Positions 18,540 to 39,265 of a DNA stretch of 49,165 nucleotides are shown piece after piece (within the stretch, counting starts at the first letter, position 1; every line of letters begins with the position of its first letter). Source of the stretch: Planctomycetota bacterium (lineage in GTDB: Bacteria; Planctomycetota; Planctomycetia; Pirellulales; Pirellulaceae); assembly GCA_029259935.1 (NCBI GenBank), contig JAJDEH010000103.1, positions 1 through 49,165 of the forward strand. Reading direction: 5' to 3'. The notes beneath the pieces are model-generated. The model was not told the origin of the DNA, did not search any database, and saw only the letters and a program-made list of their open reading frames with translations. A program made the translations under genes and the position numbers.

Positions 18540-19988
18540 CTAGGAGCAGATTTCCTTCACGACGCGAACTTTTTCAACGCCCGTCAGCCGTTCCCTGAAG
18601 CCGTGATGTTCGAAGTACAGTTCGTCGTTGTTCAATCCCAGTAGGTGCAGGATCGTGGCGTGCCAGTCGTTGACGCTGACACGGTTCTCGGCCGCCTGCC
18701 AGCCGATTTCGTCGGTCGCGCCATGGATCGTGCCGCCCTTGATACCGGCGCCGGCAAACCAGACCGAAAACCCCGTCGGGCCGTGGTCGCGACCGGCTTT
18801 GGCAGGATCGGTTCCCGGCCGCATTTGAGCAATCGGTAGGCGGCCGAATTCGCCGCCCCACACGACCAACACGTCGTCCATCAAGCCGCGTTGCTTTAGG
18901 TCGGTTAGCAATCCGCTGATCGGCTTGTCCGTCTCGGTGCAGATACTTCGTAGCGATGATCCGATGTTGCTGTGATTGTCCCACCGCTGGCCCGACGGGT
19001 AGACCTGCACGAAACGCACGCCACGTTCGACCAATCGCCGCGCCAACAAACATTGCCGGCCATAGGCATCCGTGGCCTTTTCGCCAATCCCGTATTCGCC
19101 AAGGGTTTGGGCGGTTTCGGTTGTCACATCCAGCGCGTCGCTGGCCGACAGTTGCATGCGGGCCGCCAACTCGTAGCTGGCGATGCGGGCGTCGAGCTGA
19201 AGTTGCCCGGGCCGCTTGTTGCGGTGGATGCGATCCAGCTTGCCCAGCAAGTCGCGGCTCAGCCGTTCGACTTCACTCGGCTCGGCGGTTTCCGGCTTGA
19301 GGTTCAAAATCGGCATGCCCTTGGAACGCATCCGAGTGCCTTGATAGAGCGGCGGAAGATAACCTGTTTGCCAGTTCTGCACATGATTCACCGGCAGCCG
19401 TCCCGTCGGTGAATCGAGTACGACATAGGCGGGCAGATTCTGATTGTCGGTACCCAGTCCGTAGGTGATCCACGCGCCCAACGTCGGCAAACCGGGCATC
19501 GTTTTGCCCGACTGGATTTTATAAATCGCCGGCTCGTGATTCTGATTCGTGTTAAACATCGACCGGACTAGCGCGATGTCGTCGACATGCTTGGCCAGAT
19601 GCGGCAGCAGTTCCGAAACCGGCATGCCACAACGGCCATGTTGATCGAACTTGAAGGGACTGCGCATCAAACCGCCCGCGGCGTCGGGCGACGACAGGTC
19701 CTTGGCAATGTCCTTGAGGATCGACTTGCCGTGGTTGCGATCGAGTTCGGGCTTGGGATCGAACAGGTCGACTTGCGACGGCCCGCCCTGCATCATCAGT
19801 TGAATGACCGCCTTGGCGCGAGGCTTGAAGTGGGCCGGTTTTCGAGTCAGATCGAACGACTTGGGGCGATGCTCGGCCGCCAGCAGTCCGGAACCGCCGT
19901 AGAGATCGCGGCTGAACAGCCACGCCAGCGCCGCGCCTTGCAGTCCGTTGGTAACACTTCCCAAAAATGAGCGTCTTGTTGAGGCCAT
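18540..19988 (-). CDS. DUF1501 protein with twin-arginine-like signal
   Basis: A 482-residue protein of the DUF1501 family, which has an alkaline-phosphatase/sulfatase-like fold. The N-terminus STRRSFLGSV followed by a hydrophobic stretch is a twin-arginine export signal. Family motifs include KAVIQLMMQGGPSQVDLFDPKP near the start, and VVWGGEFGRLP and GRDHGPTGFSVWFAGAGIKG in the C-terminal half, the last being the usual DUF1501 signature. The PSCyt1/DUF1549/DUF1553 gene lies 86 nt upstream on the same strand; this pair is one of the commonest operons in planctomycetes. Its biochemical role is not established; a link to polysaccharide breakdown has been suggested from gene neighbourhoods. Confidence 0.93.
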   Translation of the reverse strand: MASTRRSFLGSVTNGLQGAALAWLFSRDLYGGSGLLAAEHRPKSFDLTRKPAHFKPRAKAVIQLMMQGGPSQVDLFDPKPELDRNHGKSILKDIAKDLSSPDAAGGLMRSPFKFDQHGRCGMPVSELLPHLAKHVDDIALVRSMFNTNQNHEPAIYKIQSGKTMPGLPTLGAWITYGLGTDNQNLPAYVVLDSPTGRLPVNHVQNWQTGYLPPLYQGTRMRSKGMPILNLKPETAEPSEVERLSRDLLGKLDRIHRNKRPGQLQLDARIASYELAARMQLSASDALDVTTETAQTLGEYGIGEKATDAYGRQCLLARRLVERGVRFVQVYPSGQRWDNHSNIGSSLRSICTETDKPISGLLTDLKQRGLMDDVLVVWGGEFGRLPIAQMRPGTDPAKAGRDHGPTGFSVWFAGAGIKGGTIHGATDEIGWQAAENRVSVNDWHATILHLLGLNNDELYFEHHGFRERLTGVEKVRVVKEICS

Positions 19989-20074
19989 TTGCAATACTCT
20001 TTTTGCTCTTTGTGAGAATTACTCTTTGCGCGAACGATGGCGTGTGCCACATTAGCCACACATCGCCCCCACCA

Positions 20075-23011
20075 TCAATCGACAAACAAGAACTCGGCGG
20101 AATTCATCATGACGTGACAAAAGTTCGCCAGGGTCTTGGTCCCAGCGGCCGGTTCCGGATTCTTGTCGGCAGCTTTTGGGTCAACACGTTCCCACAGCTT
20201 CCGCAACTGTTCGACCGTCTCCAGTGCTTGTTGCTTTTCGTCCTGGTCGGGTGGGCGGCTTATGGCGATCTCAAAGATCCGTTCGACCTGCCGGCCGCGG
20301 TCGGTGGGAATTTCCGCTTCGACCCGCTTGGCGAATTCCAACGCCAAGTCGCGAACCATGCCGTTATTCAACAGATACAGCGACTGCGTGGCGACCGTCG
20401 AATTGGGCCGCGCGACACAATTCGGAATCATCTGCGGTAAATCGAATGTCTCCAGAATCGTGGGCAGTTCCTTGCGCCGCTGGCGAACATAGATCGTTCT
20501 CCGCCAGCCTTGTTCATTTCTGTTGGACGTTACCAGGCCGTCTGGCCGCACCGTGACCAGATCCGGCTTGCCAAACCGCGTTGAATCAAGTTGTCCGGCA
20601 ACCGATAACAAACTATCGCGGACCGCCTCGGCCTCCAGCCTTCGCAGTGGCATGCGGGACAGCCAGCGATTGTCCGGGTCGGCTTCTTCCGTTGCCGGTT
20701 GCACGCGCGATGCCTGGCGATAAGCGGAACTATTCATGATCTGCCGATGCAGCCACTTGAGGCTCCAATTCTCTTCGACCAAGGATGCGGCCAGCCAGTC
20801 CAGCAGTTCGGGGTGCGTCGGCGCGGTGCCCGTCTTGCCAAAGTTGCCCAGCGACTCGACGATCCCGCGGCCAAAGTGGTGATACCAAACACGATTCACC
20901 AACACGCGCGCCGTCAGCGGATGTTTGGGGTCGGTCAACCACTCGGCAAATGCCAATCGACGGCCGGTCGATCCCGGCCGCCGGGGCTCGATCTGGAAAG
21001 GCGTCTTTCCGTCACTCAACACCGACAGAACACCAGGGCCGATCAAGTCGCCGGGGTTCGTAAACTCGCCGCGCCGGAAGATCCAAGTCGGCGACGGTTC
21101 GCCGCGATCCCACAGGGCTCGAATCATTGGCTCGGGTGGAATCTTGCCTTTCAATTCCTTGGCCTGTTTGTCCGCCTGCTTCTTTAACTTGGCAAGCTCG
21201 GGATGCTTCTTGCCCAGGTCGGCGGCTGAAATTCTGAGCTGCTTTTCAAACTTCTCGGCCAGTTCCTGTTGCGCGTCGGTGCGCTTGTCGGTTGCCGTGT
21301 TGAGCATCGTTCGCACCTCGTCGCGAATGTCCTCGGGGATTTTCGCGATTTCGGCATCGACGAATTCGGTTCGCAACTCCGCTTCACGTTGGCGTAACTT
21401 GTCGTTGACGGCCGCAATCTGGTCTTGGACGACCTTTCGCTCGGCTTCCCATTGCTGGCGAATGTCGCTCGTCACATGTTTTAGGTAGCGGCGCGTCGGA
21501 TCCTTTTGTTTCGATTGGCCCGCCACCGAGGTCGGCTTGAGCCAATCGTAAACGTCGTAGGCTCCCTGAAACACGGCGACCAAGCGGTAATAGTCCCGCT
21601 GCGGAATGGGATCGTATTTGTGGGTGTGGCACTGAGCACACTTGAGCGTCAACCCCAGCACCGCGGAACCAAGCACCTCGACTTCGTCGGCCACGACCTC
21701 AAACCGTTCGTCCACGGTGTCCACGATGTCCGAGCCGGTTCCGTCGGGTGCCATGCGCAGGAATCCGGTCGCCACCAAGGCGTCCATCATCTCGGGCGTG
21801 ATCGCCTCGGCGGCTTCATAGTCATATAGCTCGTCGCCCGCTATTTGTTCCAGCAGGAATTGGTTGTACGGTTTGTCGTTGTTCAACGACCGGACCACAT
21901 AGTCGCGATACCGCCATGCATGCGACCGAATCGGATCGGCCGAGCGCTTCCCTTCCGAATCGGCGTAGCCGCACAAGTCGAGCCAATAACGTCCCCAACG
22001 TTCGCCGTAGGCGGGAGACTGCAAATAGAATTCGACCAGCTTCTCGTACCAGTCGTCTGACGGGTCCTGAACGAATCGTTGCACATCTTCCCAGTTGGGC
22101 GGAAGTCCGGTCAGATCGAAGGCAACACGTCGGATCAGCGTGAGCCTAGGCGCGGGCTCGTTGAAAGAGAGACGTTGTTCTTCAAGTTTCCGCAGCAGAA
22201 AACCGTCGAGGGGCCGGCGAACCCGCGCCGCCGACTTCACCATCGGAACCTTCGGCTTAACGGGCGTTTGAAATGCCCAAAACTGACGGTCTTCGTCGGA
22301 AACGAGCGGATCTGTTTCGGCGGTCTGGACATCAGGTTGAATGTCTAGTTTTTTGGCTCCCTGCTCGATCCATTTCGTAATCAGATCAATTTCCGACGGC
22401 TCCAAAGGGCGGACGCCCGCTCGAATCAGTTGCTTGGGCGGCGGCATATCTTTCGCCATCACGCGCTTCAGCAGCAAGCTGTCTTCCGGTTTGCCGGGAA
22501 CCACCGCCGGACCGGATTCTCCACCTTTGAGAATGGATTCGACGGTTCGCAGATCGAGCCCGCCTTCTTGATTGCGGCGGCCGTGACAAGTGACACAGCG
22601 GGTATAAAGGTAGGGCAGGACGTCGTGTTGAGTGACAACGCCGGCGGTCGCGGTTTTCGACGGCGCTCCAGCTTCCAGCCACTTTCGCAGCAAACCTTGC
22701 TCTGCCGTGGTGAGTGTCGGTTCATCCTCGGGCGGCATTTCGCCGTCCTCGACCATGGTCCACAACAGGCTTTCTTCCGGCGACGCGCCGACCAGCGCTT
22801 CCCCCGATTCGCCACCGCGCAGCAAGGTCTCCATGGTGGACAGGTCGAGGCCCCCTTTTCGTGCTTTGCCGTTATGGCACTTGCCGCACTTTTGGACGAG
22901 CATTGCCTGAACGCCGGACTCGAAATCAAGTTCGGTATCCGCAGCCTGCAAATTGACAATCGCGCAAAGAGATGCAAATGAAACGAGTAGCAAGGTGCGC
23001 GACAGCATCAT
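20075..23011 (-). CDS. Secreted PSCyt1-PSCyt1-DUF1549-DUF1553 protein
   Basis: A 978-residue exported protein. A signal peptide (about residues 1-24) is followed by two planctomycete cytochrome-C (PSCyt1) units, each with a haem-binding motif: CGKCH at 42-46 and CVTCH at 139-143. Each has the downstream methionine region of the family (GEMPPEDEP and KDMPPPKQL). DUF1549 covers about 270-480 (RRPLDGFLLRKLEEQ, YGERWGRYWLDLCGYADSEG, LKCAQCHTHKYDPIPQRDYY, which adds a third CxxCH). A charged coiled coil (about 515-640) leads to DUF1553 (about 680-950; LTARVLVNRVWYHHFGRGIV). It is the first gene of an operon with DUF1501. The c-type haem sites predict electron transfer in the periplasm; the substrate is unknown. 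Confidence 0.95.
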   Translation of the reverse strand: MMLSRTLLLVSFASLCAIVNLQAADTELDFESGVQAMLVQKCGKCHNGKARKGGLDLSTMETLLRGGESGEALVGASPEESLLWTMVEDGEMPPEDEPTLTTAEQGLLRKWLEAGAPSKTATAGVVTQHDVLPYLYTRCVTCHGRRNQEGGLDLRTVESILKGGESGPAVVPGKPEDSLLLKRVMAKDMPPPKQLIRAGVRPLEPSEIDLITKWIEQGAKKLDIQPDVQTAETDPLVSDEDRQFWAFQTPVKPKVPMVKSAARVRRPLDGFLLRKLEEQRLSFNEPAPRLTLIRRVAFDLTGLPPNWEDVQRFVQDPSDDWYEKLVEFYLQSPAYGERWGRYWLDLCGYADSEGKRSADPIRSHAWRYRDYVVRSLNNDKPYNQFLLEQIAGDELYDYEAAEAITPEMMDALVATGFLRMAPDGTGSDIVDTVDERFEVVADEVEVLGSAVLGLTLKCAQCHTHKYDPIPQRDYYRLVAVFQGAYDVYDWLKPTSVAGQSKQKDPTRRYLKHVTSDIRQQWEAERKVVQDQIAAVNDKLRQREAELRTEFVDAEIAKIPEDIRDEVRTMLNTATDKRTDAQQELAEKFEKQLRISAADLGKKHPELAKLKKQADKQAKELKGKIPPEPMIRALWDRGEPSPTWIFRRGEFTNPGDLIGPGVLSVLSDGKTPFQIEPRRPGSTGRRLAFAEWLTDPKHPLTARVLVNRVWYHHFGRGIVESLGNFGKTGTAPTHPELLDWLAASLVEENWSLKWLHRQIMNSSAYRQASRVQPATEEADPDNRWLSRMPLRRLEAEAVRDSLLSVAGQLDSTRFGKPDLVTVRPDGLVTSNRNEQGWRRTIYVRQRRKELPTILETFDLPQMIPNCVARPNSTVATQSLYLLNNGMVRDLALEFAKRVEAEIPTDRGRQVERIFEIAISRPPDQDEKQQALETVEQLRKLWERVDPKAADKNPEPAAGTKTLANFCHVMMNSAEFLFVD

Positions 23012-23583: not shown

Positions 23584-24093
23584 ATGACATCATCAGGGAA
23601 TATTGAAGCTGTCATTCAGCCAAGCCGGACTTGCGCCGGTCGTGGAGTCGAGTTCGACACCACGGTCGTCGATCGCGAGCCTCCGGCAACTCCCAACGAC
23701 TCCCCGCCACTGGACGCCGACGGTTTGCTGGAACGATGTTTGGGGAAGATAGAATTCGCTCAGAGCCTAATCGCCCAATTCCAATTGCAGTTTGACGGCG
23801 AGTTGGAAGCACTGGGCGAAAAAATTTCCGCCGCCGACGCTGAAGGTGTTCGCAGTCTGTCTCACCGTTTGAAGGGTACCACGGCGACGGTGTCCGCGCC
23901 GGCATTGCAAAAGACGTTGGCGGAATTAGAACGACTCGGTTCCCTGGGCCAGACCAGCGACATGCCGGACCATTTTGCGATCCTTTGTCAGCAATGGTCT
24001 CGCTTTTCAGACTACGTCGACACCTGCTTTCGCGAAGAAGGCCAAAACTCGGATTCAGGTTTCTCGGTACTCGATTCCGCAGATCGAGGGTGA
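23584..24093 (+). CDS. Free-standing histidine phosphotransfer (Hpt) protein
   Basis: A 169-residue protein. A disordered Pro/Thr-rich N-terminus (about 1-40) precedes an Hpt four-helix domain (about 42-155). The phosphorylated histidine is His94 in LSHRLKGTTATVSA, with the typical Lys97 and Gly98 after it. The first helix (LLERCLGKIEFAQSLIAQF) and the preceding LDADGL also fit the family. Hpt proteins carry phosphate from the receiver of a hybrid kinase to a response regulator. The response regulator gene starts 5 nt after its stop codon, so they are translated together. The hybrid kinase encoded at 26729 has no Hpt of its own, which makes it the natural donor (inference). Confidence 0.9.
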   Translation: MTSSGNIEAVIQPSRTCAGRGVEFDTTVVDREPPATPNDSPPLDADGLLERCLGKIEFAQSLIAQFQLQFDGELEALGEKISAADAEGVRSLSHRLKGTTATVSAPALQKTLAELERLGSLGQTSDMPDHFAILCQQWSRFSDYVDTCFREEGQNSDSGFSVLDSADRG

Positions 24094-24098
24094 AAATC

Positions 24099-25154
24099 AT
24101 GCGCGTGCTGATCGTGGAAGATGACAACATTGCAGCCGCCATGCTGCGGGAATGCTTGATCGACTTTGGCTTCGAAGTTTCGGTTGCCAACAATGGCGAG
24201 GAGGCGTTGGACTTAATCCGCACCGGCAAGTACCGTCTTGTCGTGTCCGATTGGGAAATGCCCGAAATGGACGGGGTCGAATTGTGCCGGCGCATTCGCC
24301 AACGGCAAGCCAGCGAGTACGTGTACATCATATTGCTGACGTCGCGCGGCGGAACACGAAACATCGTGACTGGATTGGACGCTGGTGCCGACGACTTCCT
24401 GACCAAGCCCTTTCAGCCGGCCGAGCTATGCGTCCGCTTGCGCGCGGCGGAGCGGGTGATTGCCTTGGAAAGCCGCGACCTGGTAATTTTTTGCATGGCC
24501 AAGCTGGCCGAGTCGCGCGACACCGATACGGGTCATCACCTGGAACGCATTCGCAATTACTCCCGCTTGGTGGCCGATCACTTGTCCAAGACGGATAAGT
24601 ACCGCGACGAAATTGACGGCGACTATGTGCAATTGATCTACGCCACAAGCCCACTGCACGACATCGGCAAAGTCGGCATACCCGACAAGGTTCTCTTGAA
24701 GCCCGGCAAGCTAACGCCCGAAGAATTCGAGATCATGAAGCAGCACACGGTGATTGGAGCGGAGACCTTGGACGCCACGGCGCGTGTGCGACCCGACGCC
24801 ACTTTCCTGAAGATGGCTCGAGATATCGCCTGGTATCATCACGAAAAATTCGATGGCAGCGGGTATCCTCACGGTCTGGCCGGAGAACACATTCCCTTGT
24901 GCGCGCGGATCGTGGCCTTGCCTGATGTTTACGACGCGCTCACCACCAAAAGAGTCTACAAGCCAGCCTATACGCACGAACACGCCAGGGAAATCATTGT
25001 GGCGGGCCGAGGCCGGCACTTTGACCCGGACGCGGTCGACGCCTTTTTGGCGTTGGAAAGCGAATTCCAAGCACTGCACCGGCAACTCAGTGCCACGACG
25101 CCGACGAAAATGGAATCTGAACCCGAGGTCGATTGCGAGCTTTTGGAAGTCTAA
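24099..25154 (+). CDS. Response regulator with HD-GYP c-di-GMP phosphodiesterase domain
   Basis: A 351-residue protein. The receiver domain (about 1-120) has the acidic pocket EDD (7-9), the phosphorylated Asp51 in VVSDWEMPEMDG and Lys103 in LTKPF. The HD-GYP domain (about 130-330) has LHDIGKVGIPD (His187, Asp188), KQHTVIGAE, WYHHEKFDGSGYPHGL (about 245-260) and RIVALPDVYDALTTKR. These are the motifs of active enzymes that hydrolyse cyclic di-GMP. The start at 24099 is set by GAGGG 8-9 nt upstream; the frame runs further upstream but overlaps the Hpt gene. It is cotranscribed with the Hpt gene, so phosphorylation through Hpt probably controls c-di-GMP hydrolysis. Confidence 0.95.
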   Translation: MRVLIVEDDNIAAAMLRECLIDFGFEVSVANNGEEALDLIRTGKYRLVVSDWEMPEMDGVELCRRIRQRQASEYVYIILLTSRGGTRNIVTGLDAGADDFLTKPFQPAELCVRLRAAERVIALESRDLVIFCMAKLAESRDTDTGHHLERIRNYSRLVADHLSKTDKYRDEIDGDYVQLIYATSPLHDIGKVGIPDKVLLKPGKLTPEEFEIMKQHTVIGAETLDATARVRPDATFLKMARDIAWYHHEKFDGSGYPHGLAGEHIPLCARIVALPDVYDALTTKRVYKPAYTHEHAREIIVAGRGRHFDPDAVDAFLALESEFQALHRQLSATTPTKMESEPEVDCELLEV

Positions 25155-25186
25155 GTCGGTCCAGAATCAGTCGGCACCAAGGGCGG

Positions 25187-26209
25187 CTAACTCTTGGTAA
25201 TCTCCAAAAAGAGGATATTCTGATTCTCCTCCGCGAATACGGTGATGTCCTTGATGTCTGCCTGTGGAATCTCGTCTGTCAGTTGCATCATTTCCGTTCG
25301 CGTCCGGTAGATCAAGCTCCAGTCCATGTAGATTTCCATGTACCCAATATCGCGAATGTTGGGTAGGAAATTAGCCACCAAGACCCGGCCCTGGGGACGC
25401 AGCATTTCAAACATCTTTTTCACCAGCCGGGTGCCCGCCGCCTCGCCCAGATAATCAAACAACCCCAACGAGTAGACGTAATCAAAGCTGCCCAACGATA
25501 AGGAATCGGTAAGCAGTCCGCGGATACTGGCCTGGACGGTTTCGATCCCAAAGCAACCGTAGGCACGTTCCACTTCCTCGACACTCAATGGGTCCGAATC
25601 CAACGCGACGAACCTTCCCAACTGACGGCGTTTGACCGCCGCCGACAGGCTTGCTTCGCGCAGGTGGCCGGCGGCGAGCGAAAGGACATGGGGCAGGCGA
25701 GTTTTCTCGGCAAGCCAGTCCAACCGGTTGGCGATGAAACCTCGCCTCGATAGCACTCCTTCCGGCGCGGGTGCGACGGTGGTGTAGTCGAAAATTCGTT
25801 GCCCGCGCGGCGTCGCCGGTGGAGGCGACCACAGTTCTTCACGGCCATAGATATAGTCCATCATGACGGCGTCGCCCGCGTAACCCCGCGGTTTGCTGAA
25901 GGCCCGATAGGTAAACGGATCTTCGTGGAGTAAATGCGTAAGTGGATGCCGCCGGCAGCCGGCGACCGTTTCCTTCCACCTGCTCTCGCTGCAGTTCATT
26001 TTCTGATTGCGTAACGAGAGGATCAGTTGATCCATTGCGGAATGAAACTGCCGATCGTCGACGTGCTCCTGCGACAGCCTCTGATAGACGGATTCCAACA
26101 GACCCGCGACGTCATCAGGAGTGAGAGGTTGAATTCTACTATTGGAATCCGTGCGGTGGTTTTTCCAAGGCCGCCGATCGCGGGAAGAGTAATTGGAAAC
26201 CGTAGACAT
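25187..26209 (-). CDS. SAM-dependent methyltransferase related to PhcB-type signal synthases
   Basis: A 340-residue class I methyltransferase. An N-terminal helical region (about 28-100) is followed by the characteristic FSKPRGYAGDAVMMDYIYG (about 104-122), then a Rossmann-fold domain: motif I VLSLAAGHLREA (175-186), acidic motif FVALDSDPLSV (about 200-210), DYVYSLGLFDYLGE (about 243-256) and the late strand GRVLVANFLPN. The RGYAGD motif before the methyltransferase domain is, to my knowledge, shared with proteins annotated as 3-hydroxypalmitate methyl ester synthases, the Ralstonia PhcB group, that make a quorum signal. The catalytic specificity cannot be read from sequence. It is convergent with the HD-GYP gene and divergent from the hybrid kinase, across a palindrome-rich region. 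Confidence 0.75.
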   Translation of the reverse strand: MSTVSNYSSRDRRPWKNHRTDSNSRIQPLTPDDVAGLLESVYQRLSQEHVDDRQFHSAMDQLILSLRNQKMNCSESRWKETVAGCRRHPLTHLLHEDPFTYRAFSKPRGYAGDAVMMDYIYGREELWSPPPATPRGQRIFDYTTVAPAPEGVLSRRGFIANRLDWLAEKTRLPHVLSLAAGHLREASLSAAVKRRQLGRFVALDSDPLSVEEVERAYGCFGIETVQASIRGLLTDSLSLGSFDYVYSLGLFDYLGEAAGTRLVKKMFEMLRPQGRVLVANFLPNIRDIGYMEIYMDWSLIYRTRTEMMQLTDEIPQADIKDITVFAEENQNILFLEITKS

Positions 26210-26728
26210 GATGCCCTTCGGAGGTAGTGCGTGCTCCGCTCCCCTGGGGCATTTGCAAATGAAAAGGACGGATTGGCGTCATAAGCCCCGCTCTGACGTC
26301 AATCCGGGATTCCCTGATGGGTACGCACTATGCCAGAATCACTTCGCGTTGTCAAATCTTTGATCGCAGGCCACTTTCAGGACGCCCAAATCGCGCGATT
26401 AGGCTGTGTTTTCAGGCATGAAGTCGCGAGCATCTCCCCCAGGAATCCCCTCGCAATCGACACAAGCGCCAGCTCTCATGAGGGGTGGTCGCCCCACCGA
26501 TGGGCGAGAAAATCCGAATATTTTGTGCACCCATTAGAACCACTACTCTTTGGATAAATAAATCCCCAATGAGGGCAGAATGCTAGAATTGGAAAGAGAA
26601 TAGTAGGGCTTTCGCACTAGTATTTGCCGGGCAGTGAGAATCCGATCCGTGGCAATCCCGGATATCGCAAAGCCAACTTCGTGAGTTGACCATTACTAAA
26701 TGTTCGCGGCGACTTAAGCGTTATCCAT
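26210..26728. other. Divergent control region between methyltransferase and hybrid kinase genes
   Basis: This 519-nt stretch separates the divergent methyltransferase and giant kinase genes. The half next to the methyltransferase holds several inverted repeats (listed separately). A 75-codon open frame at 26330-26557 lacks a ribosome binding site and is not called. The kinase ATG at 26729 has no clear ribosome binding site. Confidence 0.5.
26225..26330. promoter_or_regulatory. Cluster of nested inverted repeats, candidate operators
   Basis: Four dyad elements lie within 106 bp. Inner pair: CGGATTGGCGTCA (26269-26281) with TGACGTCAATCCG (26294-26306), 12 of 13 positions paired, 12-nt loop. 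Outer pair: TAGTGCGTGC (26225-26234) with GTACGCACTA (26321-26330), 9 of 10 paired. Between the outer-left and inner-left arms are CCCCTGGGG (26241-26249) and a perfect 12-bp palindrome CATTTGCAAATG (26250-26261). No T-run follows the inner stem, so a terminator is unlikely. The position, 16-120 nt upstream of the methyltransferase start, suits repressor or activator sites, or a structured 5' leader. Confidence 0.55.
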
Positions 26729-29700
26729 ATGGGATCTTCAATCAACGATAACTTGTCAAGTGAAAGAGCGCCTCCAGATCCGGGTCTGGAGCGGGCCTTT
26801 GGCGAACGATTTGTCGCCGACCAACTTCTGGCCGAAGCCAACGGCGTGGAGACCTGGCGGTGTACGGACTTACAAACGGATACAGCGGTCGCTCTCAAGA
26901 CCGCAAGCGTGAAAGGAGTTTCGCCAAGCCTTCTGACACGCGTTGAGCGTGAAGCCGATTTGCTTTGTCGCATCAAAGACACCTCTCTCGCGCCGATGAT
27001 TGAATGGGGGCATGAAGGTGATCAGTTGTACGTCGCGCGCGCCTTTGTGTCGGGCACGCCCTTGGAAAAATTACTCAAGGAGTCGTCGCTGACGCTGCTG
27101 GATTCGTTGGTCCTTGGCTCGGACATTTTGAAGGCTCTCAAGATCGCACATGACCAAGGAATCCTGCATGGTGCGATCCGCCCGCATAATGTGATCGTTG
27201 GAAGATCCGCCTCGCGCGGCGCGGCGCTAATCAACACGGGCCTCTTTCAAAATCAACTGTTCGACGTCTGGAACTGGGTCCATCAGAGCGGTGCCGCGCT
27301 CTATTTGTCACCGGAACAGGCGGGCGCTTTGGATTGTGAAGTGTCGGTCGCTTCGGATCTCTACTCGACCGGCTTGTTGCTGTTTGAATGCATTGCCGGG
27401 CATCCCCCGTTCGAGAGCGACGACTTTGGCGGATTGCTTTTGGAACACATGACAGCTCAGATCCCCGATCTGCGCGGCGGCCGCTACCATGTACCGCGGG
27501 TGGTGAACGAAATTGTTCAGCGGCTGTTGCGCAAGGATCCGCGTGACCGCTACCAATCGGCCGACGCGGTGATCGTTGATCTGGAAGCGGTGGCCGGAGC
27601 ACTGCGCGAGGGAGACTTGGAGCCCCGCATCGTTGTAGGATCCCACGATCGCCGAACCACGCTGACCGAACCGGCCTTCGTCAGTCGCGACGATGAACTC
27701 AAGGAACTTGAAAAGCATGTTCGCCGGGCAGGGCACGGGCGCGGCGAAATGATCCTTCTGGAATGCGATTCGGGCGGAGGCAAGTCGCGGATTCTTGACG
27801 AATTGGCCTTGCGGGCCGCGCGCGACGGTGTGCGCATTTTGCGAGGACAGGGCGTGCATCAGGTTGGCCAAACGCCGTTTCAAATCTTGGACGGTGTCAG
27901 TCGAGGTTTCGCGTCGGCGGCCAAGCGAGATTCAACCTTTGCCGAGGACGTCTGGTCGCGTTTGGGACCGCATCGGGAATCCGCCATGTCGGTGTTGCCC
28001 GCCGCGGCCGAGTCGTTGGACTGGAAATCGGAAGACACTGTCGGCCCCGAGCAGTTTGGAGAAACTCGAAGCATCATCGCATTGGTGCACTTTCTCGAGG
28101 CACTGGGATCGAAATCGCGTCCGGCGGTGGTTCTGTTGGACGATTGCCAATGGGCCGATGAACTTACCATCAAGCTGGCCGTGCATTGGAACCGGCGTCG
28201 CGCCGATCCCGATCAAGAGCCATGCTACGTCGCGCTCGTCGCGGCCTTTCGCTCGGAGGAAGTGGGAGACGATCATCTACTCCGCCAAATCGAAAGCCCG
28301 CTGCACTTGCGGCTTTCTCCCTTACGAGGAGAAGAGCTGCGCCGGATGCTGGAGTCGATGGCCGGTCCCTTGCCATCGGAAGCGGTCGACATCATCGGGC
28401 GTCTATCGGAAGGAAACCCCTTCATGGCATCGGCCATGTTGCGGGGAATGGTCGAGTCGGGCGCGCTAGTCTCGGACGCGGACGGATGGCAGATTGAACC
28501 GCGGGCGATGGCGGATGTGCGAAGTTCGAGCCATGCCGGCGCTCTATTGTCTCGGCGGATTGACCTGCTGCCCCCCGCGACGATTCAGTTGCTCGGCGCG
28601 GGAGCCGTGCTGGGCAAGGAATTCGATCTGGACTTGGCCGCGACGTTGACATCGCATTCCGTCAGCGACGCAATTTCCGCCTTGGAGGACGCGCGTCGCC
28701 AGCGGGTCGTATGGCTACGTCCTGACGGGATGCGATGTGCGTTCGTCCACGATAAGATCCGCGCGGCACTGCTTGAGCGGCTTAGTGTCGAAGACCGGCA
28801 AGATCTGCATAGAATCGCCGCGATTGAATTGAGCCGGCAGGAAAAGAAGCCCATCTACGATCTGGCCTATCACTTTGACGCCGCCGGTGAACACAAACTG
28901 GCGCTCGGCTGTGCGATCGTCGCGGCCGAGGAAGCGCGCTCGCTATACTCCCTCGAAATCGCGGAACAGTTCTATCGGATCGCCGCCAAGGGCATCAGCG
29001 AGTGCGACGATGAAACGGGCTATCGCGTGGTCGAAGGGCTTGGGGATGTCTTGCTGCTGCGTGGCCGCTACGACGAAGCCGAAGGCCTGTTTCAACAAGC
29101 AAGCGCGCTGGCGGACGGCAAATTCGCGCAGGCGGAAATCAAAGGCAAGCTCGGCGAGTTATCGTTCAAGCGGGGCGAAATGGAAGCCGCGGCGGTGACC
29201 TTCGAAGAGGCGCTGCGACTGTTGGGTCAGCATGTTCCCCGATCGCTGGTGGTCTGCACGGTGTTTCTGTTGTGGGAGGTTTTCCGCCAGGCCGCGCATA
29301 CCGCGCTGCCGCGTTGTTTCGTGGGGCGAAGGAAGGCCAAACCGAACGAAACCCAGTTGCTGGTGCTGCGACTGTTGAGCCGGTTGGCACACGCCTACTG
29401 GTTTGTGCGTGGCAAGGCGCGAGTCTTTTGGTCGCATTTGGTGGGGCTCAATTTGGCGGAACTCTATGAGCCGACTCCGGAACTGGCGCAAGCCTATTCC
29501 GAACATGCGCCAGGAATGACATTGATCGGCTATTTCAGCCGAGGAATCACCTACGCAAAGAAGTCGTTGGAAATACGCAAATCGTTGGGCGATGTCTGGG
29601 GCCAAGGCCAATCGTTACATTATCACAGTGTCGTGCTTTACACGGCTTCTCGTTTTCGCGAATGCATCGACGTTGGACGCGAAGCGGTACGGCTGTTGGA

Positions 29701-32700
29701 ACGGACCGGCGACTTCTGGGAAGTTCACATTGCCCACTATCAGATCGCGGCGTCCCAGTATCGGCTGGGTGATTTGCAGGCGGCGCGGGAAGAGGCTGAA
29801 TGGATCCATCGTTCGGGAATTTTGTTAGGGGATCACCAGGCCTCGGGAATCAGCCTTGATGTTTGGGCGCGCGCCGACCCAGCCAACATTCCTCCCGCCA
29901 TTTTGGAAACCGAGATTCAACGGGTGCGCCACGACGCGCAAGGCACGGGACAAGTGTTGCTGGGGGAAGGCGCGCGTTTGGTGGCCGCGGGAGAACTTGA
30001 GCGCGCCGAAGCCGTCTTTCGGCGAGCCATCGCGGTCGCCCGGCAAGCCCATGTGTGGAACACTTACATTTCCCCCAATCTAGCTTGGTTGGCGACGACG
30101 CTGCGAATCGCGGCTGAGTCGCGGGTTTCCTATGGATGGAAATACCAGCGTCTTATGTTGCGCCGCGCGAAATCGGTCGCCCGCCACGCGCTTCGCGAGA
30201 CGTTTCGGTTTCCCAACGAATTGCCGCACGCCTTACGTGAATATGCGGCGATTCTCGCCATGCTCGGCCAAACCCGTCAAGCGCGCCGCCTATTTCGAAA
30301 GAGCCTTACGGCTGCCAGGCGACAAGAGGCCGCCTATGAATATCTTCTCACGTGGCAACTGCGCAATCGGGTGGGCCGGGCCCTTGGTTGGCCGGAGGCG
30401 GATCGGCCGCCCACAATCGATGAAACGAAGCTGCTAGAACAATTGGTTTTGCCGAAGCAAGACGCGACTCCGGAAGACGCAAGGCCCGTTACTTTGTCCT
30501 TGGCGGATCGCTTCGACGTCGTGCTGGACGCTGGCCGGCGAATCGCCTCCGCGCTTTCCGCGCCCGCGATCCTTTCTCAAGTGCGGGAAGCCGCCTTGCG
30601 TTTGCTGCGCGGAGAACAGTGTCTATTGCTGGAGGTCAACCCGGACGCCGAGACGGAGTTGCGACTTTTCAATGGCGAACCCAACGTGGAGTTCAGCGAA
30701 ACGAAAGCCCGGCGGGCCATCACGGCGCGACGATCGGTTGCCTTTTCGAGCGATCTTTCCGGCGACGAAGACGCCGGGGACGAAACAACGCTCGCCGAAG
30801 AAAAATCCACGCTGTGCGCGCCCATCTTCGTGCGCGGGCGAATCTGGGCCTGCATTTATGTCGTGCATGGCAGCGTGGAGGGCCTGTTCGGCGCGGACGA
30901 AGAACGAGTCGCGGATTTCATCACGACCATCGCGGGCGGTGCCTTGGAAAACGCCGATGGGTTCACGCGCCTCGAGCAACTCAACGCGACCTTGGAGCAA
31001 CGCGTCGCCAATCGAACCGAGGCCGCGGAATCGCGTGCCCGAGAACTGGCGCGCTCGAATCAGGAACTTGAGCGAATCGCCGTGGAACTCAAGCAAACTG
31101 AAGAAGAGCGGTGCATCGCCATGGAAGAGGCGGAAGCCGCCAACCGCGCCAAAAGCCAATTCTTAGCGGCCATGAGCCACGAAATTCGCACACCGATGAA
31201 CGGAATTATCGGATTCACGGAATTAGCGTTGACGACCATGCTTTCGTCGCAGCAAAAGGGTTATCTGAATATCGTCAAGCATTCCGCCGACGAACTTCTG
31301 CGGTTGTTGAACGACATCCTGGACTTCTCCAAGATCGAAGCCGGCAAACTTGAGCTGGAGGCAATCGATTTTGATCTGCGAGAGACACTGGGCGACGCGA
31401 TGCAGGCCTTCGCCGTGCCGGCGTCAGCGAAGGGGTTGGAATTGATGTTCCGGGTCGATGCAAACGTACCTTCCAACGTGAACGGCGATCCAGGTCGGCT
31501 ACGCCAGATTCTGTCCAACTTGATTGGCAATGCCATAAAGTTCACCGAGCGCGGGGAAATACTTGTTGATGTCGGCTTCAAGGGATCGGACACCGAATTG
31601 ATTCATTTCGCTGTGCATGATACCGGAATCGGCATCCCCCCCGACAAACAGCAGCGAATCTTTGAGTCGTTTTCCCAGGCCGATAGCTCGACGACACGCC
31701 GCTTCGGCGGAACGGGCCTGGGCCTGGCCATTTCATCGCAACTCGTAAAGATAATGCAGGGCGAAATCTGGGTGGAAAGTGAAATGGATCAAGGCAGCAC
31801 TTTCCACTTCACGGCACGACTGGAAGCGTCACCGCAACACGCCGCGCCGCCGCTGGGACTTCTTGGTGAATGCGAAGAATTCACGGCGTTGGTCGTCGAC
31901 GACAACGAGACGAGCCGGATGATTCTCTCCGATTTATTGGAAGATCAGGGGATCAGCGTCCAAGCCGTGGATGGGGCGCAAGCTCTGTGTCTGACGAAGG
32001 AGTGGGATGTTGCGGGCGTGGATCTTGTGTTGCTGGACGCGGGAATCACGACCGTGAACGCCATTGAATTGGCTGAGGAACTGCTCTCGGCGGACCTGAC
32101 CACCAGCCAGCTCATTACACTGTTGCCGTCCGCTCAACCGGACCTCTCCACGCAATGTCAGGAGACCGGGATCCAACAATGCTTGATCAAACCGGCCAAG
32201 CACTCGGACCTGTTCGAGGCCGCGCGCGCCGCGTTACGACAGACCAAGGAGGGGAAGCAGACGAATGAGGAAAAGGAAGTCGTGAGAGTCAAAGAGTCGA
32301 AAGAGCCCAAGAAACTCGGCAACGATCAATGGTCAACCCCGGCAAGCCGTTCGCTGCGCGTGCTGTTGGCTGAAGACGGTCCCATCAATCAGCAAGTGGT
32401 TACAGGCTTGCTGCAATTGCGCGGACATCACGTGGAAGTCGTCGATACGGGCCTGCGAGCCGTCGAGGCGCATCGAGATCAAGCCTTTGACATCATCCTG
32501 ATGGATGTTGAAATGCCACACATGGATGGTATGGAAGCCACGGCGAAGATTCGCCTTCGAGAGCAGGAAACCGGAAGCCATATCCCCATTGTTGGCCTTT
32601 CCGCTCATGCCATGGCGGGCTTTCGCGATCAGTGCCTGGAGGCCGGAATGGATGACTTCATCTCCAAGCCGGTTCAGCCAGACGAACTGTTCAACGCCGT

Positions 32701-32773
32701 GGAGTGCATTCCGCAAAGACTCGCCGAATCGTTGCCCGAAAATCTCGAGGCTTCGGCGAGTTGCATGGAGTAA
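26729..32773 (+). CDS. Giant hybrid sensor: pseudokinase-AAA-TPR-GAF-histidine kinase-receiver-receiver
   Basis: A 2014-residue cytoplasmic protein. Order: a Hanks-type kinase fold (about 25-290) whose catalytic motifs are lost (HGAIRPHN at 147-154 in place of HRDxKxxN; NTG at 169-171 in place of DFG); an AAA ATPase with Walker A SGGGKS (Lys352) and Walker [12 protein letters not shown]; helical TPR-like repeats (about 690-1230); a GAF domain (about 1257-1407); a coiled coil; HisKA with His1484 in [12 protein letters not shown]; HATPase with [18 protein letters not shown] and GGTGLGLAI; receiver 1 (Asp1770, Lys1821); receiver 2 (Asp1926 in LMDVEMP). The order resembles cyanobacterial and other Ser/Thr-His hybrid kinases. 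It has no Hpt; one is encoded at 23584. No membrane span or signal peptide is clear. Confidence 0.92.
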
Positions 32774-32820
32774 CCGATCACGAGCGCTTCTCGCGTGGAA
32801 TCGCAAACCTGAACGCGGCC

Positions 32821-34095
32821 TCAATATTTCAGTGTCAGTCCCACGTTGAGGGCGTCGGCCGAAACTGTGTTCGTGACCGTTCCGCCAGCGGGAATTGGTC
32901 CGGTGACGGAGTTCTGGAAGCCGTGAATGTAGGCGGCCGTCATGCTGACGTTGCGAGTCAACAGAAATGATACGCCCGTCGACACGACATGCTCAATGAT
33001 CAGCGGCGAAGCAACATTGAAAAACGATTCCGCGTTTTTGATCGGATTCTGCTGGAAGGTATACCCCAGTCGCAGGTAGAGGCATTCCGAGACTTTGTAT
33101 TGGGCACCGGTTGAAACTGAAAAAATGCTGCTCCAGTCCAGCCCGTCCAATGCCCCATTGATAAACACCGCCGCGTCGCCGAAGCCGTCCGTGGCGTCGT
33201 AGTTGATATAGCGAACGTCGGTGGCGAAAATCCAGTTCTTCCGCCCCGAATAGGCGGCACCCAGCGAGACGATCATCGGATAGTCGACGTCTAGTTTCGA
33301 CACTCGCGTCGCGCCGCCGGCTCCTTCGGTAAAGAAGCGAAAGTCCTCAAACCACTGCGGACTTTTGATCGATGCGCCCAAGTGCAATCCGTTGTCATTG
33401 ATGTAGTAAATACCTGCCTGCACACCGCCGCCAAAATGCCAGCGAGTCCCACGTCCCGACGTAAACCCGACACCAGCAACCGGTGGAGCGGTGAACAGCG
33501 GATCGAGGGCGATGCGGGCCAACGTCATGGTGGGGGCAATTCCGATGGAAAGGTTTTCGGTGATCGCATAGGAAATCGTCGGCGCGATTTGTACGAATTC
33601 GGCCTCCGAGTAAATGCGCCCCAGCCCTCCAAAACCCACCTGCGGAAACAAGATCGGATTGTTCGTGCCCGCCGGAGAGCTACCCGGGTAGTTCACCTTG
33701 AAGCCAGCGATGCCATACATGCCCAAGCCAAGGGTCCATCGCGAACCGGGAGTCTTGTGGACCCAGCCCACCGTGGGAATGGGCGTGACGCCAGGCTCAC
33801 CGCGGTCGGTTCCGCTGAACGCTCCCACCGTCGACGAAATCTCTTCCGTTGGCAACAGCAACTCCATGCCGAACGTAATTTCAGAGGAGGCCAAACCACT
33901 GATCGACGCGGGGTTCCAATGCAGCGCGCCCGCAGCGTCGATCGGCGCGGCGGTCGATGCGCCACCCATCGAGCGGTTGACGGGGCCAACGCCCGTTAAC
34001 ACAACTCCACCCGCGGCAAACAGGTTTTGGGCAAGAACGCAGGAAAGCAGAATTAGAGCAGTGAGACAAGATCGGTGGAGATATTTGGTGCGCAT
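32821..34095 (-). CDS. FadL/OMPP1-type outer membrane channel
   Basis: A 424-residue outer membrane beta-barrel. A signal peptide (MRTKYLHRSCLTALILLSCV...) ends near FAAGG. The mature N-terminus has the FadL/TodX signature: GVVLTGVGPVNRSMGGASTA followed by DAAGALHWNPASISGL, the plug region that contains the NPA motif. The rest alternates beta strands with loops and ends in a typical barrel strand, ALNVGLTLKY, with a C-terminal aromatic residue. FadL proteins import long-chain fatty acids and other hydrophobic compounds across the outer membrane. The start at 34095 gives a sensible signal peptide; an open frame extends to 34266 but adds an unlikely N-terminus. It is convergent with the hybrid kinase gene (47 nt between stops). 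Confidence 0.9.
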   Translation of the reverse strand: MRTKYLHRSCLTALILLSCVLAQNLFAAGGVVLTGVGPVNRSMGGASTAAPIDAAGALHWNPASISGLASSEITFGMELLLPTEEISSTVGAFSGTDRGEPGVTPIPTVGWVHKTPGSRWTLGLGMYGIAGFKVNYPGSSPAGTNNPILFPQVGFGGLGRIYSEAEFVQIAPTISYAITENLSIGIAPTMTLARIALDPLFTAPPVAGVGFTSGRGTRWHFGGGVQAGIYYINDNGLHLGASIKSPQWFEDFRFFTEGAGGATRVSKLDVDYPMIVSLGAAYSGRKNWIFATDVRYINYDATDGFGDAAVFINGALDGLDWSSIFSVSTGAQYKVSECLYLRLGYTFQQNPIKNAESFFNVASPLIIEHVVSTGVSFLLTRNVSMTAAYIHGFQNSVTGPIPAGGTVTNTVSADALNVGLTLKY

Positions 34096-34377
34096 TGGGC
34101 GGTCCGTCGCCGTGAAGCGTTTAGATAAGGCAGTTAGTAAAATGGTACGTGAACACCTGTGCCGTTTTATCGACGTCCGATACTGCGGGAAATCACTATT
34201 GCAAAAGTCATTCGCGATGTAACGATTAGGCGGAGTTTGCCGATTAGGGGCGAGCTGGCGGCACACACAAAGCGCGTAAGTCCGAGAGTCCGGCTCGGTT
34301 TGCTACACTGCGGTTATTGGACCTCGCCCCGAGCCTTTCGAACGATGCGCGATTCGGTCTCTTGGTGGTAGTTAATC

Positions 34378-35817: not shown

Positions 35818-35870
35818 AGAACGTCGTTTAGAGAACGTCGTTTAGAGAACGTCATCTAGAGAGCGTCGTT
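35815..35870. repeat. Four tandem copies of a 14-bp unit between convergent stop codons
   Basis: Unit TAGAGAACGTCGTT occurs at 35815-35828 and 35829-35842 exactly, at 35843-35856 with its last three bases changed, and at 35857-35870 with one change. The first TAG is the stop of the zinc-ribbon gene, and the last TT are part of the stop codon of the convergent sulfatase gene. No spacers separate the copies, so it is not a CRISPR array. Confidence 0.92.
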
Positions 35871-37308
35871 ACGGAATGACGCGGCTCATCTGCTTCGCAA
35901 GGCGATCCGCGATTGCGTTGAATCGCTTGTCTTCAATCACGTTGGTGGTTTCGTTGGGATCCGCTTGATGGTCGTACAACTCACGGGCCAGCAAGCGACC
36001 GTCTTTGGGATCGCGCCATTCCGTGTAGCGGAACCGATCGGTTCGCATCGAGTAACCCATCGCGTCCATCTTCGGCCCGTAATAGGCTGGTCGCGGATGT
36101 TGAGTGAAGGCCGCCGCCTTGACACTCGCCCGCGGGTCCTTCAACACGGGAACCAGACTCACGCCCTCAAGCTCTTTTGTTTGCGGTAATCCCGCCAACT
36201 CCGAGACGGTGGGATAAAGATCTAGCAGTTCGGCCAATGCGTTCGTCTTGGCTCCGGCCGAGGTGTTGTCGGGTGTGGCAATGATCAACGGCACGCGGGC
36301 GTCGAGTTCAAAGTTGGACGTCTTGGCCCATAACGAGTGCTCACCAAGATGAAATCCATGGTCCGACCAAAAAACAATCAGCGTGGTGTCGCTTAGTTTC
36401 TGCCGCTCAAGTTCATGCAGCACTCTGCCGACTTGCGCATCGAGATAACTGATCGCGGCCAGATAGCCGTGCCGCATCTCTAGCACGGACTGATCGGAAA
36501 GGGTTCGCGCCGGATCGCCGAGAATTTCGCGACTATTGTGCCAGGCAATCCGTGGCGCGGCGCGCGGCCAATCAGGATTGCTTGGCGACGAGATTTTCTC
36601 GCGGGGATACAGATCCCAGTATCGTTTGGGCGCGTTGAATGGTGAATGCGGCTTCCAAAAACCGACGGCCAGAAAGAACGGTTCACCGGCTCGTTTACGC
36701 TGGCGAATCGCCTCGACCGCCAACTTCGCCACGCGGCCATCGTAGTAGGCTTCGTCCGGAACATCACGACATTCGCACTTGCGATCCTCCACCAGATTGT
36801 GCGGCAGTTCGCCTTCGACTTGCGGTTTGTCGTCTCCATGCGTGGCAAAGTGCATCACCGCGGGCACGCTCCACGAGTCGGGATCGCCCTTTATCTCGGT
36901 GCGCCAATTGTGAAAGATCTTGCCGATATTTTGAGTGAAGTAGCCCTGCTGCTTGAAGTGCTGTGGCAACGTGACCACCTTGGGCATTTCGTCGCGAAAG
37001 TGCTTCCTTAAATTCCACAGTTGCAGGCTGTCGGGCCGCCGACCAGTCAGCAACGAGGCACGAGATGGGTTGCAAAGCGCTTGCTGACAATAAGCTCGCT
37101 GAAACATCACGCCGCGCGCCGCCAGGCGATCAATGTTCGGCGTCTTCACCAGGGGATGGCCGTAACATCCCAAGTCACACCGCAGGTCGTCCGCCGCGAT
37201 AAACAGCACATTCATCCGCTCACCCGCACGGACTAAACCCAAACCAAGGTGGCCAAGTGCCGCGACAAATACGGCTAGAAACATTGAGAGTTGGGCCCGT
37301 CGTTTCAC
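35869..37308 (-). CDS. Secreted sulfatase, iduronate-2-sulfatase-like
   Basis: A 479-residue type I sulfatase that hydrolyses sulfate esters, probably of sulfated polysaccharides. The formylglycine site is CNPSR (79-83) followed by ASLLTGRRP; other metal and substrate residues are ADD (39-41), KPHSPF and WSDHGFHLGEHSLWAK. These motifs resemble iduronate-2-sulfatase and choline-sulfatase-like members. I chose a GTG start at 37308 because AGGAGA lies 6 nt before it and the product begins MKRRAQLSMFLAVFVAALG, a normal signal peptide. ATG codons at 37329 and 37284 are less well placed. Sulfatases are very numerous in marine planctomycetes. Maturation needs a formylglycine-generating or anaerobic enzyme encoded elsewhere. 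It is convergent with the zinc-ribbon membrane protein gene. Confidence 0.93.
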   Translation of the reverse strand: MKRRAQLSMFLAVFVAALGHLGLGLVRAGERMNVLFIAADDLRCDLGCYGHPLVKTPNIDRLAARGVMFQRAYCQQALCNPSRASLLTGRRPDSLQLWNLRKHFRDEMPKVVTLPQHFKQQGYFTQNIGKIFHNWRTEIKGDPDSWSVPAVMHFATHGDDKPQVEGELPHNLVEDRKCECRDVPDEAYYDGRVAKLAVEAIRQRKRAGEPFFLAVGFWKPHSPFNAPKRYWDLYPREKISSPSNPDWPRAAPRIAWHNSREILGDPARTLSDQSVLEMRHGYLAAISYLDAQVGRVLHELERQKLSDTTLIVFWSDHGFHLGEHSLWAKTSNFELDARVPLIIATPDNTSAGAKTNALAELLDLYPTVSELAGLPQTKELEGVSLVPVLKDPRASVKAAAFTQHPRPAYYGPKMDAMGYSMRTDRFRYTEWRDPKDGRLLARELYDHQADPNETTNVIEDKRFNAIADRLAKQMSRVIP

Positions 37309-37693
37309 GATAGATCTCCTCGAAAACATCTTCAACGATAGTGGCGACGAATGCGGCAAATTCTGGGTTGTCTGCAACGGCGTTGCCTACAACTTCGGTC
37401 GGAGAGTTGTGAAAGCAGAACATATCTGCCACCCGCGCCGCTATCAAGTTATCGCTGCCAGGTCAGGACGTGCCAAGATGAGTGCGACTGAATGTCACAG
37501 GACACGTGCGAATAGGCGCGCTCCGATGAGCCACAAGAAAATGATAGACACCCTTGACGCCCCTCCGCCATTCCTAATCAGTACAAATTCCGCGCCAAAC
37601 TCCGATTTTACTCGGAAGCTGTCCCACGGCACGCACTTTGCGTTTCCCTGCTGGTGATTACTTAGCCACCCAAAAAACGAAAGGGGGTGCGGC
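37309..37693. other. Divergent intergenic region
   Basis: This 385-nt stretch separates the minus-strand sulfatase and the plus-strand TPR gene. Short open frames are present but have no ribosome binding site. I see no repeat or structured element that I would defend. Confidence 0.4.
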
Positions 37694-38767: not shown

Positions 38768-39265
38768 CTTGATGGCTTAGCCAAACAAGTTGTTCACTCT
38801 CCGTTGCAACGTGTTCGGCTAAGCGGCGAGCGGCGAGAACCGGATCAGCCTTCGCTTCGGTCACGAAAAGGGCCCAGCGATCAGGCAATCGCGGTTCTCG
38901 CTGCTGATGTGGCCTCTCTGGCCTCATCCGGGCAGAGATTTTTCCAAAGCCGTCTTCGCATGGCTGCACGACAGCACTGGCACACGACAGCACGGGCAAG
39001 GGTGCAGTTTCTTCAAGCAGGCGGTCGGCCTGGCAAATCGCGACCAAAAAACGAAGAAGATTGCCGTGCCGATCGCTGGTGGAAAAGGTAGAATATCTGC
39101 TGCCAAGTTTTTTGGGCGAAAACCGACCCATGGCCGATACTACTTGTTGATTCGGACTTTACCTCGGCCTCGCCGCTTTTTACAAAGAACGCTTCCTCGG
39201 AATTGAATGCCAAAAACAACGGCCTTGCACCTTAAGAACCGCCAATACGGACAATGGAGTTTTGC
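38768..39265. other. Intergenic region between TPR protein and DUF1501 genes
   Basis: This 498-nt stretch lies between two plus-strand genes. It contains a small direct repeat CACGACAGCAC near 38970-38995. A 139-codon open frame on the minus strand overlaps the end of the TPR gene and has no recognisable content. The promoter of the DUF1501 gene is expected near 39200; GGAG is placed 6 nt before its start. Confidence 0.4.

Follow-up and report, generated by a model that had tools for sequence, protein, structure and literature searches.

This locus raises the question of whether five neighbouring genes work together in one signalling circuit. The window, which is the whole stretch of 49,165 nucleotides analysed here (contig JAJDEH010000103.1 of a Planctomycetota bacterium), encodes side by side a free Hpt protein, a receiver-HD-GYP response regulator, an S-adenosylmethionine (SAM)-dependent methyltransferase, a giant hybrid kinase and a FadL-type outer-membrane channel. 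The initial annotation had joined them into one circuit in which a lipid signal controls cyclic di-GMP (c-di-GMP). The present analysis indicates that the five genes are, with near certainty, one conserved module. It is also reasonably probable that a self-made lipid signal, its uptake through FadL, the kinase, Hpt, the receiver-HD-GYP protein and c-di-GMP hydrolysis belong to one circuit. The conserved module, the homology to phcB-like genes and the intact relay and HD-GYP residues partly support this proposal, while a kinase architecture and a gene order of phcBSRQ type were not found.

Conservation of the five-gene neighbourhood

The Hpt protein (169 residues; 23584..24093, plus strand; PF01627, E 2.7e-9) has a candidate phospho-accepting His94 in HRLKGT. 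As noticed initially, its open reading frame (ORF) ends 5 nt before that of the receiver-HD-GYP protein (351 residues; 24099..25154, plus strand; PF00072, 2.5e-29; PF13487, 6.1e-30), a predicted c-di-GMP phosphodiesterase. The methyltransferase, named type A here (340 residues; 25187..26209, minus strand), does carry the RGYAGD motif of its family and is the predicted signal synthase. Its PF13649 match (3.7e-6) lies one bit over the family cut-off in the Pfam scan. The kinase (2014 residues) is encoded at 26729..32773 on the plus strand, and the FadL/OmpP1-type channel beside it (32821..34095, minus strand) was identified by a PF03349 match (E 1.3e-23 over residues 93-479). The longest ORF of the channel gene is 32821-34266; the ATG at 34095 was taken as the start, and the protein then begins with a signal-peptide-like segment, as judged by eye. 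There are four transcription units by strand (Hpt with HD-GYP, methyltransferase, kinase, FadL) rather than a single operon.

In related genomes the neighbourhood is kept rather than lost, and the grouping recurs far beyond chance. The first survey covered 146 genomes of one planctomycete order around the genome of locus L003 (G001). The giant kinase was found in 39 of them at E <=1e-30, 36 being strong (6.6e-262 or better, one 6e-248); the three weak genomes (G015, G020, G123) were excluded from the 36. Thirty-three of the 36 strong genomes encode a methyltransferase within 10 kb of the kinase, belonging to type A in six, B in 19, C in six and D in two (the types are described below). It is directly beside the kinase in 32, 8.5 kb away past FadL, Hpt and HD-GYP in G011, and was not found in G074. 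An HD-GYP gene lies within 10 kb on the same contig in at least 29 of the 36, counted from the first 38 near-full matches, and on a different contig from the kinase in G102, G061, G046 and G055. The receiver-HD-GYP protein occurs at 1e-60 in 72 of the 146 genomes, several of which have a second paralogue. Kinase genomes make up 33 of the 35 genomes with a type A, B or C methyltransferase (hypergeometric 7e-27) and 19 of the 29 with FadL at 1e-20 (hypergeometric 1.3e-7), both values being uncorrected for ancestry.

The second survey, of 120 genomes from another order, was centred on G004, which carries the Schlesneria locus L006; at a threshold of 1e-100, 27 of them contain the kinase. Twenty-four of the 30 matches were read, all of them long, and a methyltransferase adjoins the kinase in 19 of the 24 matches read (L006, L189-L208, L229-L231). 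Among 146 genomes of the phylum to which L047 (Archangium) belongs, 40 have a kinase match. Twenty of the 44 myxococcal matches were examined; a type A methyltransferase is beside the kinase in 12, and the other eight giant-kinase loci (L221-L228) have no methyltransferase match. In L221, two genes with receiver-like starts lie just downstream of the giant kinase.

The search was also made from the methyltransferase side. With profile A1, built from the window enzyme and 17 relatives, 243 related genes were detected in genome contigs; the best 80 were examined, and 17 of these 80 loci belong to Planctomycetota by title. In the stretches examined, the giant kinase is present whole or in large part in 14 of the 17 (truncated by the stretch end in L049), and Hpt together with receiver-HD-GYP in 13. 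The short contig L005 (4.6 kb) combines Hpt and HD-GYP with part of a FadL gene and, at most, a kinase fragment; L015 and L017 have only kinase and methyltransferase, and L001 and L010 have the methyltransferase without the other parts. The kinase-methyltransferase pair was present in five of the 63 non-planctomycete loci, all titled as Myxococcota genera or family.

Altogether, of 66 planctomycete kinase loci (loci, not genomes; G087 gives two), 57 contain a methyltransferase, 47 HD-GYP, 44 Hpt and 35 a FadL gene from one or other subfamily; 30 are complete, with all five parts. Thirteen of them have the methyltransferase by construction (window, L002-L004, L006-L009, L012-L015, L017); in the remaining 53, a methyltransferase is present in 44 and all five parts in 25. 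All five genes occur in Roseimaritima sediminicola JC651 (L008), Rhodopirellula maiorica SM1 (L012) and strain CA13 (L007). Truncated or short kinase frames (under 1600 residues), namely those of L011, L049, L071, L176, L178 and L224 and the second one of L192, did not enter the locus counts, the residue alignments, the tree or the per-domain and hydropathy analyses.

That these genes are neighbours by ancestry only and serve separate pathways is highly unlikely. The separate transcription units of the window would suit such a reading, and the counts are inflated by shared ancestry. However, the same set of genes recurs in different orders (FadL may adjoin Hpt or the kinase, or lie between the methyltransferase and HD-GYP), the methyltransferase type in one slot changed at least five times, and a second phylum also retains the pairing of kinase and methyltransferase. 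Other HD-GYP homologues of the order offer a contrast: in nine such loci (L183, L188, L232-L238; 11-20 kb each), neither a methyltransferase nor FadL nor the giant kinase is present. Seven of these loci (L183, L188, L232-L235, L238) adjoin a protein of 931-1358 residues with an Hpt match and are apparently separate relays. The best FadL match (61%; L184:8805-10378, genome G136, no kinase match) also adjoins a protein with an Hpt match, of 1134 residues.

The giant kinase and the proposed phosphorelay

The kinase had been correctly described as a 2014-residue hybrid with two receivers and no Hpt, but its long N-terminal part had been missed. Pfam places Pkinase at 43-279 (6.7e-18), AAA_16 at 317-483 (2.1e-18), TPRs at about 770-1206 and GAF at 1277-1407. 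The C-terminal part consists of HisKA-HATPase_c (1474-1699), REC1 (about 1722-1840) and REC2 (1878-1992), and the scan of the whole protein gave no Hpt match. The alignment shows the phosphate-bearing histidine (His1484 in the window copy) in every sequence, both the 66 planctomycete and the 23 myxococcal ones. The REC2 aspartate (Asp1926) is present in all 63 planctomycete copies having that domain. The REC1 aspartate is kept in 51 of 55, and its acidic-pocket residue is Asp in just 16 of 55. Therefore, REC2 is likelier than REC1 to be the phosphate donor. Both receivers are missing from the 23 aligned myxococcal copies.

The protein-kinase-like domain of the window copy has HGA for HRD and NTG for DFG, so that both aspartates are gone. 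The HRD aspartate is kept in 15 of 66 planctomycete copies versus 20 of 23 myxococcal ones, and the DFG aspartate in 35 of 66 versus 22 of 23. Judged by these residues, most planctomycete copies have a degenerate protein-kinase part. A simple hydropathy scan found no transmembrane-like segment in the window kinase, and a cytosolic location is our guess. In a FastTree phylogeny of 89 kinases (TPR-GAF-histidine kinase part), the window copy groups with the Schlesneria locus L006 and L189 (local support 92). Eleven forks of the tree are open and several long branches meet, so that placements are partly unsure.

The remaining relay residues are well preserved. In linked homologues, the phospho-accepting histidine of Hpt and the glycine four residues further are present in 45 of 45. 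Among 48 linked homologues of the HD-GYP protein, all keep the His-Asp and Gly-Tyr-Pro residues, 45 the aspartate of HHExxDG and 47 the receiver aspartate. The closest solved chain to the HD-GYP protein is 4r8z, 'Cyclic di-GMP phosphodiesterase' (1.5e-51). All four phosphate-carrying residues of a four-step phosphorelay (kinase His, REC2 Asp, Hpt His, HD-GYP receiver Asp) are present and conserved, and from them we infer phosphate transfer from the kinase through Hpt to the HD-GYP protein.

The methyltransferase slot and the proposed signal

The relation of the methyltransferase to PhcB was examined in 399 genomes from the order to which the L055 genome (titled Nitrosomonadales) belongs, taken here to be GTDB's Burkholderiales. 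Type A profile A3 matched in 12 of them at 1e-6. Eight fetched loci (L242-L249) encode phcB-like proteins of 462-501 residues. A histidine-kinase-domain gene directly adjoins the phcB-like gene in six (L242-L246, L249) and is followed by a receiver-kinase gene in L242, L245 and L246; a kinase match is absent at L247 and L248. Pfam analysis of L242 and L246 gave, in order, methyltransferase, kinase, receiver-kinase and receiver protein. Loci of this kind were taken as phcB-like because this order matches that of phcBSRQ as told in the available part of PMC6989110; the assignment is by order, not by name. At the N-terminus, the phcB-like proteins of L242 and L246 extend by a long additional region in which Pfam matched nothing at E 0.1.

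Type A matches the methyltransferase of these operons at 99.8% in hhalign (30% over 240 columns) and with 74 bits and 29% in BLASTP; the type B profile reaches 99.6%. On this evidence the window enzyme is a distant homologue of the phcBSRQ-like operon methyltransferase, and the initial name of PhcB-like methyltransferase was apt. The gene context, however, is not that of phcBSRQ. The neighbours in the window are HD-GYP, the giant kinase and FadL rather than a PhcS-PhcR-PhcQ operon, the phcBSRQ gene order is absent, and the kinase architecture differs from that of the operon kinases. Conversely, neither an HD-GYP domain nor the giant kinase had a match in the phcB-like loci (Pfam on neighbours for two loci).

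The window enzyme may make a 3-hydroxy fatty acid methyl ester. Among the matches listed, 15 of 120 relatives bear the name of such an enzyme in the Joint Genome Institute (JGI) annotation. The type A structure model (predicted local distance difference test, pLDDT, 91.8) has generic methyltransferase neighbours, the best fold match being 3ocj, 'possible exported protein' of Bordetella parapertussis. No solved structure is close to the enzyme by sequence (best E 0.0014). A plasmid search with the enzyme gave 140 records, 125 of them Rhizobium, with no Ralstonia among the genera listed. N-acyl tyrosine methylation of the stieleriacine type was set aside, since the available text of PMC12479983 ties it to other genes. 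In L025:6180-7701 (contig titled Nitrospinota), the methyltransferase adjoins an HD-GYP domain gene (49% identical), with no giant-kinase match.

The slot beside the kinase is filled by different enzymes. In the fetched loci, type B is a 22-30% identical methyltransferase occupying the type A position, and the two types are related (hhalign 99.8%). Its profile A4 found 20 strong genomes among the 146, counting matches better than 1e-90, and in 19 the gene is beside the kinase. G075 has a partial match on the HD-GYP contig and no kinase match. Nineteen further genomes have weak matches only (1.9e-40 to 1.1e-26), which were taken for other methyltransferases. Type C is a protein of 457-541 residues with PF04072, the LCM carboxyl methyltransferase domain, and is unrelated to type A by profile (hhalign 0.2%). 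It occurs in seven of the 146 genomes, beside the kinase in six; the seventh (G124) has no kinase match. A thioesterase-like match (PF09500 or PF14539) was found in seven of eight type C copies (E 1.7e-6 to 0.013), and L160 has none. A type C model (P0121, named Aeoliella mucimassa; pLDDT 86) matches ML2640, Rv0731c and human LCMT1. A separate match is to 1sh8, a 'probable thioesterase' of the hot-dog fold (template modelling score 0.73-0.75 of target). A fusion of thioesterase and carboxyl methyltransferase, as suggested by the model, would fit conversion of an acyl thioester into a methyl ester. Type D (PF12147), defined after inspecting the two loci in which it is beside the kinase (L157, L185; Pfam run on L157), is tentatively a third type allied to the PhcB-related subfamilies A and B.

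Five of the 24 kinases read in the second order have no methyltransferase beside them. In two of these loci a reducing type I polyketide synthase (PKS), KS-AT-DH-ER-KR-ACP-thioesterase, is directly upstream of the giant kinase (L191:11876-19312, minus strand; L193:587-8098, plus strand). L193 also has a thioester-reductase-like (NAD_binding_4) gene downstream of the kinase. On the kinase tree, the methyltransferase type changes at least five times among 73 typed rows, and type C is in two separate clades. Linkage alone would make the type track the kinase, and such tracking does not by itself speak for matching; the refilling of one slot by different enzymes does. Since the slot was refilled by an LCM-type/thioesterase-like fusion and, in two loci, a reducing PKS, an acyl-ester-type signal fits, and the refilling suggests a methylated acyl product. 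The view of the methyltransferase as a mere accessory, with type A in eight of the 146 genomes by the strict search, was dropped, divergent types having been found in the same slot.

The same enzymes could act on the kinase instead. In that case the methylated carboxyl would belong to the kinase or to a partner, much as CheR methylates chemoreceptors, and the lipid imported by FadL would come from outside. The gene lies close to the kinase (median gap 360 bp in 73 loci), a phcB-like homologue has a weak CheR match (E 0.005), and one of the LCM enzymes, human leucine carboxyl methyltransferase 1 (3iei, 3o7w), acts on a protein. However, the thioesterase-like domain of type C and the fatty-chain-type synthase before two kinases suit a small acyl product, and PhcB, the nearest characterised homologue, is called an autoinducer synthase in the available part of PMC6989110. 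We therefore hold adaptation of the kinase to be unlikely. It is rather unlikely, too, that a foreign or environmental hydrophobic compound is sensed after FadL uptake and is detoxified or modified by the methyltransferase, with no communication between cells. FadL channels import monoaromatic hydrocarbons as well (PMC7728783, available in part), and the type A family is found in many other contexts. Yet the fusion and the PKS that refilled the slot are builders, not degraders, and homology to phcB-like genes also speaks against such a role.

The circuit that we favour, with its own lipid signal, is built on the parts, their intact key residues, their conserved linkage and the repeated refilling of the synthase slot, all observed directly. 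It would begin with the methyltransferase methylating the carboxyl group of a fatty-acid-derived molecule to give a PhcB-like methyl ester. The ester would leave the cell, and ester of the cell itself and of its kin would re-enter through the FadL channel. The giant, apparently cytosolic kinase would detect it by its N-terminal part (pseudokinase, AAA/TPR or GAF), with altered autophosphorylation at His1484. The phosphate would pass from His1484 to Asp1926 of REC2, then to His94 of Hpt and the receiver aspartate of the HD-GYP protein. Lastly, hydrolysis of c-di-GMP by the HD-GYP domain would move the cell between its attached and free-living states. Planctomycetes alternate attached and swimming cells, and c-di-GMP often governs this decision. 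The methyltransferase product is probably the signal of the kinase; that this signal is an acyl methyl ester has a somewhat better than even chance.

Several observations weigh against this circuit. The giant kinase was not seen in the stretch examined for 58 of the 63 non-planctomycete methyltransferase loci, and the methyltransferase family therefore also works elsewhere. In the first order, two of the eight type A genomes (G025, G042) have the gene on a contig other than that of the kinase, and 10 of the 29 FadL genomes have no strong kinase match. Nine of the 66 planctomycete kinase loci have no methyltransferase and 31 no FadL, some stretches stopping at contig ends. No Hpt or HD-GYP match was linked to the kinase in the 20 myxococcal loci. 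The thioesterase-like part of type C is over the Pfam curated cut-off in only two of the eight copies scanned. Relatives of the HD-GYP protein include a 3'3'-cyclic GMP-AMP (3'3'-cGAMP) phosphodiesterase. Per-domain divergence against methyltransferase type among the 89 kinases is flat, with no preferential domain. Finally, 49 of the 89 kinases show one to three hydrophobic segments, and the cytosolic placing is therefore unsure for the family.

If true, the circuit would give a ligand class for a large kinase family and extend PhcB-type signalling past the bacteria where it has been studied. The module yields clear predictions on the signal molecule and the relay. More tentatively, and with slightly less than an even chance, the loci could represent a large, undescribed class of lipid communication across Planctomycetota and Myxococcota. 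The apparently cytosolic kinase would be the receptor (pseudokinase/kinase-AAA-TPR-GAF), and PhcB-like methyltransferases, thioesterase-like-carboxyl-methyltransferase fusions and reducing PKSs would be interchangeable makers of acyl esters. Lipid dialects would be lineage-specific, and the c-di-GMP output would be shared in planctomycetes. Among the papers listed by the literature search, none describes this five-gene module by title or start of abstract, most subscription journals being outside the search, and the same limited listings showed no lipid cell-to-cell signal system in planctomycetes.

Around the module, PSCyt/PSD1, DUF1501 and sulfatase genes lie on both sides (18540-23011; 35869-42368). 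In addition, a protein of 1800 residues with a protein kinase domain and WD40-type repeats (11722-17124, minus strand) adjoins an extracytoplasmic function (ECF) sigma factor gene (17225-17899, minus strand).

Comparison with known systems

The module shares with the PhcBSRQ system of Ralstonia and relatives a homologous methyltransferase with KPxGYAGD, GLFDYL and W-x-LIYR motifs, encoded beside a histidine kinase. It differs in that the phcB-like proteins, of 462-501 residues, have an extra N-terminal region and that their partner kinases are of other architecture. The kinase resembles the dual Ser/Thr-His kinases, cyanobacterial cbSTKIII and HstK, which in the available part of PMC2176072 carry an N-terminal protein kinase, GAF and a C-terminal histidine kinase on a single chain. 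Here, the first of these domains is degenerate in most planctomycete copies, AAA and TPR stand between, and two receivers come after. In the PA1396/orphan Hpt/PA1397 relay, an RpfC-like kinase without Hpt likewise uses an orphan Hpt (PMC4504480, available in part), but the output there is a DNA-binding regulator. As for the channel, rhizobial FadL admits long-chain acyl-homoserine lactones (AHLs), according to the available part of PMC9938287. The signal there is an AHL, and clustering of FadL with a sensor is not mentioned in that part.

The closest logic is that of the Rpf/diffusible signal factor (DSF) system of RpfF, RpfC and RpfG, and the window protein is an Rpf-type receiver-HD-GYP response regulator. 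RpfF has the crotonase fold. The synthase here is a methyltransferase (or PKS) and not RpfF, and the crotonase family was absent from the domains of the 27 window proteins scanned. Both systems have a hybrid kinase and a receiver-HD-GYP protein, and they share a fatty-acid-type signal and a phosphorelay to c-di-GMP degradation, which in our case are proposed (Rpf/DSF as described in the available part of PMC4504480). The input of RpfC consists of five transmembrane helices in the same source, whereas the window kinase is gigantic and has no such segment. Unlike in RpfC, where it is fused, Hpt is a separate protein here, and a FadL channel is included. By this comparison, the circuit is most likely an Rpf-like logic assembled from other parts.

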